Positions 35,665 through 45,640 of a DNA stretch of 64,000 nucleotides are shown piece by piece (positions within the stretch are counted from its first letter, which is position 1; every line of letters starts with the position of its first letter). A program made the translations under genes and the position numbers. The notes beneath the pieces are model-generated. The model saw only the letters and a program-made list of their open reading frames with translations. It ran no database searches and had not been told where the DNA came from. The DNA is from Fidelibacterota bacterium (GTDB lineage Bacteria; Fidelibacterota; Marinisomatia; Marinisomatales; UBA1611): assembly GCA_016784605.1 (NCBI GenBank), contig JADHUI010000003.1, positions 43,426-107,425 on the forward strand, given 5' to 3'.

Positions 35665-35701
35665 GTAAATCTTTGTAAAAAGATTACTTTGGAATTAGTA
35701 A

Positions 35702-35736
35702 AAAAGCCATTCGTTTCGGCGAATGGCTTTTTTTTA
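35702..35736 (+). terminator. Rho-independent terminator (possibly bidirectional)
   Basis: AAGCCATTCG-TTTCGG-CGAATGGCTT perfect 10-bp stem followed by T-tract. Confidence 0.9.
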
Positions 35737-35756: not shown

Positions 35757-36035
35757 TTAACAAGCACCAGCAGATTGAATCACTAATCCTTTACCACGGT
35801 AATCGTTCACATAATCAATCGTAAAACCACCAACGTGATTTTGATCTTGTTCACTAATGATAACGTCTATTCCGTTAATCGAATATTTTTTATCTGTATT
35901 ATTGGACTCATCCAGAGCCATGCCTAAGCTAGGGCCACCTCATCCAAAACCAGCCATATAAACTCTTAATGACTTTCCGTCATTTTGAGATAATATAGCG
36001 TCAATCTCTTTTTTTGCAATATCTGTAATAGTCAT
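35757..36035 (-). CDS. HesB/IscA-like protein with in-frame TGA (35940-35942) as candidate selenocysteine
   Basis: Frame is open both sides of one TGA: MTITDIAKKEIDAILSQNDGKSLRVYMAGFG[U]GGPSLGMALDESNNTDKKYSINGIDVIISEQDQNHVGGFTIDYVNDYRGKGLVIQSAGAC*; TGA is at codon 32, aligned with the first conserved Cys of IscA/HesB. Confidence 0.75.
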
Positions 36036-36153
36036 AATTGTCCTAACATATAATTTTATGATTAATGTTTTGATACATTCATTAATATTTGGTTACATCT
36101 TTTTTAATTAATTTTTCAAAAGAAGAGCGATAAGCAATAATTAGGGAATAAAT

Positions 36154-44113: not shown

Positions 44114-45640
44114 ATGCCTCAAATCGGAATAATTCTATTTCTGTTTGTGGCTTCAGTTGGATTCGGCCAACCGGGATTTAGTCTAGAAGATTTAAACCCA
44201 AATTCATCCACATTTGGCCAGATGGTTGGACCTTCAAATTACGAAGGGGATATAACAATCCTTTTTTTTGGTCATGAAACATGAGGCACTTGTAGAGACC
44301 GGTTCGGTTTCCTAAACCAAATTCATGCGGATTTATATTCTCTAAATGTGACCGATATTCATATTATAGGAATTGGGAAAGATGCATATAATTCGTCCCT
44401 AGAACAAATGGTAGATGGGAACCATTTACCGTGGGTTGAAGATTCGAGTGCATCAGGATATCCCGTTTGGTCATCTTGGAATGCGACTCAACGATCAATA
44501 TATATATTAGGCCGAGACGGAATACAAGATACAACATTTAATATAACGCCATACACGGATGATGATTCACAAGATTATTCTTATCTAATGTATTTAATAT
44601 TATTGTACCGAAATAACGGTGGAAGTCAAACTATTCTAATTCCGGATGATTTTTCTGAAGTTCAAACTGGAATTGATATGGCTCAAAATGGAGATCTTAT
44701 ATTGCTGGAGCCAGGAACCTATTATGAACAAATTAATTTTTTAGGTAAAAATATTACAGTTGGGTCCTTATTTTTTCATAAAATGAATTCGGATTATATA
44801 GGTGAATCTGTCTTGGACGGTCAAGGTATTGGTAGCGTAATTACCATCGAAAATGGGGAAGGATCCAATTCCAAAATTATGGGTCTAACAATTAAAAATG
44901 GAAATAGCAGTAATGGAGCTGGGCTTATTATTGCAAATCAATCAAACCCCGTCATAGAAAAAAATCATATAATAGAAAATATTGGCTTTGGATGCGGAGC
45001 CGTTGGGGGTGGATTGGCTATTATGAATGAATCAAGTCCAAAAATCATTAGTAATATGATTTTAAATAATAGTGTCATGGGACCTTGTGATTGCATTTGT
45101 TATTTTGGGGGAGGCATATTTGTTGATTCTTCTTCTACGCCAATTGTGGGAGGCGCAGAAGGACTTGGAAATATATTTTTTGAAAATTATGGAGATTATG
45201 GACATCAGTTATTTCGTCAATTACCCATAGACACCACGGGATGGCAACCTTTGAATGGCCAATTCAACACATTTGAAAACTGCCCGCCAGATTTTATTGG
45301 CGATGTTTATCCAGCAAACGGGTGGGATGTTTCTCATTGCTATTCTTTTTTAACAGTTACTCCAAATTCTACACCCAGTTCTTTTAATCTCTTTTCCGCT
45401 TATCCAAATCCATTCAATGAAAGTATCACCATCTCCTTTCGTTTATTTGAAGACCAATTTACCCAAATGAATATTTTTGATTTATCAGGCAAATTGGTAG
45501 ACAAAATTTTAAATGATTATAAAAAAATAGGTAATTATACTATTACGTGGAATGCAAATAATTATGCAAGCGGGATATATATTGTTCAATTAAATTTTGG
45601 TGATGCACAAGTATCTCAAAAAGTCCTTCTCCTTAAATAA
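44114..45640 (+). CDS. Secreted candidate selenoprotein: thioredoxin-like domain with UxxC (TGA 44282-44284), right-handed beta-helix, T9SS C-terminal sorting domain
   Basis: MPQIGIILFLFVASVGFGQPGFSLEDLNPNSSTFGQMVGPSNYEGDITILFFGHET[U]GTCRDRFGFLNQIHADLYSLNVTDIHIIGIGKD... in frame with the listed ORF 44348..45640; Sec would be residue 57. Confidence 0.8.
44295..44311 (+). promoter_or_regulatory. Candidate bacterial SECIS hairpin
   Basis: GAGACCG-GTT-CGGTTTC, 7-bp stem with one G-U; apical loop starts with G, 17 nt after the TGA. Confidence 0.5.

Follow-up and report, generated by a model that had tools for sequence, protein, structure and literature searches.

The window analysed here is a stretch of 64,000 nucleotides from a 2.17 Mb draft MAG of an uncultured marine bacterium (Ca. 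Neomarinimicrobiota/Fidelibacterota). On its minus strand, a reading frame that starts at an ATG at 36035 and closes at a TAA at 35759-35757 contains a single in-frame TGA at codon 32 (35942-35940), and reading through this codon yields a HesB-like protein of 92 aa. The coordinates, strand, length and TGA position of this frame had been given exactly in the initial annotation. The features of the locus are as follows:

36035..35757, minus strand: HesB/IscA-like selenoprotein gene (predicted) of 92 codons, ATG to TAA, with TGA as Sec at codon 32
36041..36044, minus strand: AGGA, a ribosome-binding-like site 5 nt 5' of the ATG, read from the sequence
35940..35942, minus strand: predicted Sec codon TGA (U32) in the motif GFG-U-GGP, family signature UxGP
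35905..35919, minus strand: bacterial SECIS hairpin GGCUC-[UGGAU]-GAGUC, nt 24-38 with the T of TGA as nt 1
35920-35903, minus strand: alternative register of the SECIS with a bulged U37, which extends the hairpin in the window sequence
35910..35914, minus strand: SECIS apical loop UGGAU with GG, with 25 nt between UGA and loop (bSECIS model in PMC13188914)
35760..35762, minus strand: codon of C92, the C-terminal residue, sole Cys in the protein and all that remains of the usual Cys cluster at the C-terminus
35700..35733, no strand assigned: strong bidirectional intrinsic terminator, common to the HesB-like gene and the convergent csp (cold-shock) gene

The read-through protein was compared with family models, with C scored for U in the NCBIfam searches. 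It matched Pfam Fe-S_biosyn at 1.8e-07, above the gathering cut-off, and its best two NCBIfam models were both Sec HesB models, namely NF038090 IscA_HesB_Se (E = 2.2e-18, 66.4 bits) and TIGR01911 HesB_rel_seleno (E = 1.9e-13, 50.8 bits). It was noted that both bit scores lie below the curated cut-offs of 85 bits and 66.35 bits, respectively, and the gene was also missed by table-11 ORF calling. The other tested Neomarinimicrobiota copies likewise scored under both cut-offs, while a copy from another phylum (L016) passed NF038090 with 100.3 bits and reached merely 51.2 bits for TIGR01911. A family-model cut-off is an annotation threshold and not a biochemical feature. When aligned with structures of the wider family, codon 32 falls on the Cys of the GCSG motif in PDB 2apn and 1nwb. 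In the tree, all Sec rows and the Cys paralogue of L016 were placed on one side and the SufA-like rows on the other (split support 84/88).

HesB-like selenoproteins were described in early bacterial selenoproteome surveys (PMC1794560, PMC1088965), with Sec-to-Cys exchange and loss among these proteins noted in the 2006 survey, and UxGP is the motif listed for them (PMC13188914). The window protein resembles the members of this family (TIGR01911/NF038090) in the predicted Sec at the first conserved Cys, the UxGP motif, its length and its best family scores; it differs in its sub-threshold scores and in a C-terminal Cys cluster that is reduced to a single terminal Cys. We determined that the window gene is a genuine further member of this known family and is of the expected kind, as the initial annotation had proposed in calling the product HesB-like, in placing U at the first conserved Cys and in appealing to the precedent of the family. 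No paper with this phylum and selenoproteins as its subject was found in the open-access literature, and the range of HesB-like selenoproteins is hereby widened by one phylum.

An AlphaFold2 model built with 18 family rows reached a pLDDT of 88.3, with low values for the last two residues, and placed U32 directly after the strand formed by residues 22-31. The fold of the model found matches in the PDB among IscA, SufA, HI1723 and DsrR. The likeness to the A-type carriers IscA, SufA and ErpA lies in the fold (IscA 1s98, TM 0.79 by query; SufA 2d2a, 0.70) and in the register of the first Cys, but the window protein has Sec in place of Cys, a P after U-x-G and no C-terminal CGCG. From this examination, the three conserved Cys of A-type carriers (C...CxC) were not found in the protein, which has U32 and C92 only. 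DsrR (PDB 2k4z) shares the A-type fold with a TM of 0.77 by query, a similarity by fold only, and no sequence evidence was found for a closer kinship of the window protein to DsrR. Across the family, the Thermodesulfobacteriota and Myxococcota members carry a C-terminal Cys cluster such as CGGCTSC; most Neomarinimicrobiota members end in one terminal Cys (SAGAC, HSC, YGC, YDC or SEC), with the exceptions of L060 (CC), L062 (CSC) and L064 (DCC).

We assessed the conservation of the TGA and the selection acting on the sequence around it. A TGA was found at the same codon, one per gene, in 11 genomes of the phylum, comprising that of the window and 10 others, and the TGA form was also encountered in MAGs assigned to Bacillota, Thermodesulfobacteriota and Myxococcota and in one unclassified bacterium, a distribution which excludes chance. 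Between the window gene and L011, there were 7 synonymous and 3 nonsynonymous substitutions 5' of the TGA and 19 and 6 3' of it; the comparison with L012 gave 13 and 4, and 26 and 14, respectively. Because the substitutions past the TGA are mainly synonymous, the downstream part is under selection as protein.

The 48 nt starting at the TGA were aligned for 19 Sec genes, and a common hairpin was identified in which nt 24-28 pair with nt 34-38 around the loop UGGAY (UGGCA in L064). The stem, 5-6 bp in length, was kept in 18 of the 19 genes, with just three apical pairs retained in L062. Pair 24-38 occurs as GC, UA, CG or GU and pair 25-37 as GU, GC or AU. Pairing was observed in 95.6% of cells, compared with 88.5% in shuffles and with at most 53% when the partner was slid; the covariation score was 0.283 against 0.140 (0/500 shuffles). 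Relatedness among the genes is uncorrected in shuffle control (a). The stem uses two codons that are uncommon in the window genes, CTG (4.1% of all Leu codons there) and GAG (12.6% for Glu), yet they are invariant in all 18 aligned Sec genes and are present in L064 as well. In L064 the protein motif reads ALAE for ALDE, yet the stem is retained and is longer, GUCGCUC[UGGCA]GAGCGAC. The initial annotation had considered two hairpins, with the loops UAGGCAU and GCU; neither is conserved, and both were ruled out as the SECIS because the conserved and covarying stem lies elsewhere, at nt 24-28/34-38. A clean comparative SECIS is now available for the HesB-like selenoprotein family.

Tandem Cys and Sec HesB-like paralogues were encountered at L016:2514-3240, where the Cys copy falls within the Sec clade. 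Of these adjacent paralogues, the Sec copy has the stem and the Cys copy (GCC CTG GAC GAG GCG) lacks it, which suggests a Sec-to-Cys conversion following duplication. The control search for Cys forms yielded one near-family case, L072 from the Bacillota genome G248 (GCSGPNFGMALDD), and the Cys controls are therefore few. Its codons include GCT CTG GAT, but GAG is replaced by GAT, and the stretch may be a remnant of a SECIS.

Folding of the window sequence by itself was also considered. For the bSECIS MFE criterion (<= -7.5), a 52-nt fold reaches -7.6 and the core alone -6.2. When folding of the window sequence starts at the UGA, competing structures prevail and the apical-pair probability is 0.26; for the SECIS to become dominant (0.93-0.98), the first 12-15 nt have to be left out, on the assumption that the ribosome covers them. 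The single-sequence folding energy of the window SECIS was no better than that of shuffles, and the z-scores were uninformative.

The presence of Sec machinery elsewhere in the genome, which the initial annotation had predicted, was confirmed by the detection of selA, selB, selD and tRNA-Sec. The selA gene lies at C15:50812-52152 (524 bits) and is directly adjoined downstream by selB (344 bits), and selD (404 bits) has its own in-frame TGA within HGSGUACK. The tRNA-Sec, with the anticodon UCA, scored 58 bits against an Rfam cut-off of 47; ARAGORN did not find it around selA/selB, and the gene sits on another contig. It was noted that the TGA-containing selD (L009, contig C21 of the same genome) lies near an ordinary SufA-like gene with CGCG. 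A strong SelB match was present in all 11 phylum genomes with the TGA form. SelB scored over the cut-off in 166 of 245 phylum genomes and is thus widespread in the phylum, so its co-occurrence with the TGA gene is by itself modest evidence.

Sequence evidence shows the gene, the selection on it, its SECIS and the machinery, and from these we infer Sec insertion itself, with SelB and Sec-tRNA(UCA) proposed to decode the UGA at codon 32 with help from the SECIS hairpin inside the coding sequence. That codon 32 would be decoded as Sec appears nearly certain. If the TGA were instead a true nonsense mutation, the HesB gene would be decaying, and a decayed copy was encountered in the same genus: the HesB-like Sec gene of genome G001 (L013/L026; L013:3001-3244) is broken by a 32-nt deletion. 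The deleted bases span the interval between two direct repeats of TGGATGA, the Sec TGA lying in one of them; with these bases the region next to U is gone, and the resulting frameshift closes the frame at once. SelB is still present in G001 and, because the remainder of the copy is ~90% identical, the break looks like a recent, lineage-specific loss; the decay of this copy is no ground for calling that of the window a pseudogene. A sense codon other than Cys or Sec in related genomes, or a gene otherwise decayed, had been named in the initial annotation as the mark of a pseudogene. In the homologues inspected, the only sense codon encountered at position 32 was one for Cys, and a decayed copy was found in one same-genus genome only. 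With the same TGA kept through the phylum and in other phyla, which already refutes decay for the window copy, and with mostly synonymous change 3' of the TGA, a conserved SECIS and complete Sec machinery, a pseudogene is highly improbable. Slimmer still is the chance that a code change or a suppressor tRNA assigns the TGA to an amino acid other than Sec. Read-through is needed for the frame, and the residue inserted is not deducible from sequence alone, but TGA serves as a normal stop after related genes (HSC-TGA in L025, YGC-TGA in L027), the long genes of the window have open frames under table 11, the genome has a SelB/tRNA-Sec system and the gene a SECIS, and Cys occupies this position in the wider family.

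Given decoding as Sec, the residue would stand where IscA, SufA and ErpA have the first of their three conserved Cys ligands, and the usual C-terminal CxC would be reduced to one Cys, the last residue C92. The likeliest function, with about an even chance, is that U32 and C92, contributed by a single subunit or by two, bind Fe or an Fe-S cluster or pass it on. Such a carrier would serve anaerobic or suboxic metabolism alongside the ordinary SufA-like carrier; as a SufA-like CGCG protein is encoded in the same genome, near selD, the Sec protein supplements that carrier and does not replace it. An alternative that concerns the function only and leaves the decoding as it stands is a thiol/selenol redox or metal(loid)-binding role dependent on Sec, with a U32-C92 selenenylsulfide or a soft-metal site. 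The U32 plus one C-terminal Cys of most Neomarinimicrobiota copies, which lack the CxC of cluster-binding carriers, is consistent with this role, but the fold and the family are those of Fe-S A-type carriers and one Cys per subunit is able to ligate a cluster in a dimer, so that we regard it as possible, with the odds somewhat against it. Either use of U32 and C92, as ligands or as a redox pair, is inferred. On balance, a HesB-like selenoprotein with its UGA decoded via the SECIS is the overall best explanation of the locus, with a probability of roughly 0.93, and the Fe or Fe-S carrier function proposed here is the less certain half of this explanation.

The Neomarinimicrobiota proteins might tentatively be regarded as a distinct HesB-like subfamily without CxC and with one Sec and one C-terminal Cys; on their A-type fold they would serve either as minimal carriers of iron or of a Sec-ligated cluster, or in selenenylsulfide redox chemistry. 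This reduced U...C architecture offers a simple test case for why an Fe-S carrier fold uses Sec. When neighbourhoods were compared by eye, no constant neighbour gene was found for the HesB-like Sec copies in other genera, and the gene context therefore gives no lead on function. Nitrogen fixation is reported to be normal in a maripaludis disruption mutant (PMC11097638).

A second TGA-interrupted gene was observed in the window at 44114-45640 on the plus strand. Its product has a redoxin domain with TUGTCR and matches NF053656 redoxin_TUGYCR at 1.3e-43, along with a signal-peptide-like start, a beta-helix region and a T9SS type A sorting tail, and is probably a secreted selenoprotein. This gene is likely the first selenoprotein candidate of the initial annotation, which had cited another TGA-interrupted ORF in addition to the HesB-like one, and it likewise belongs to a known selenoprotein-type family.
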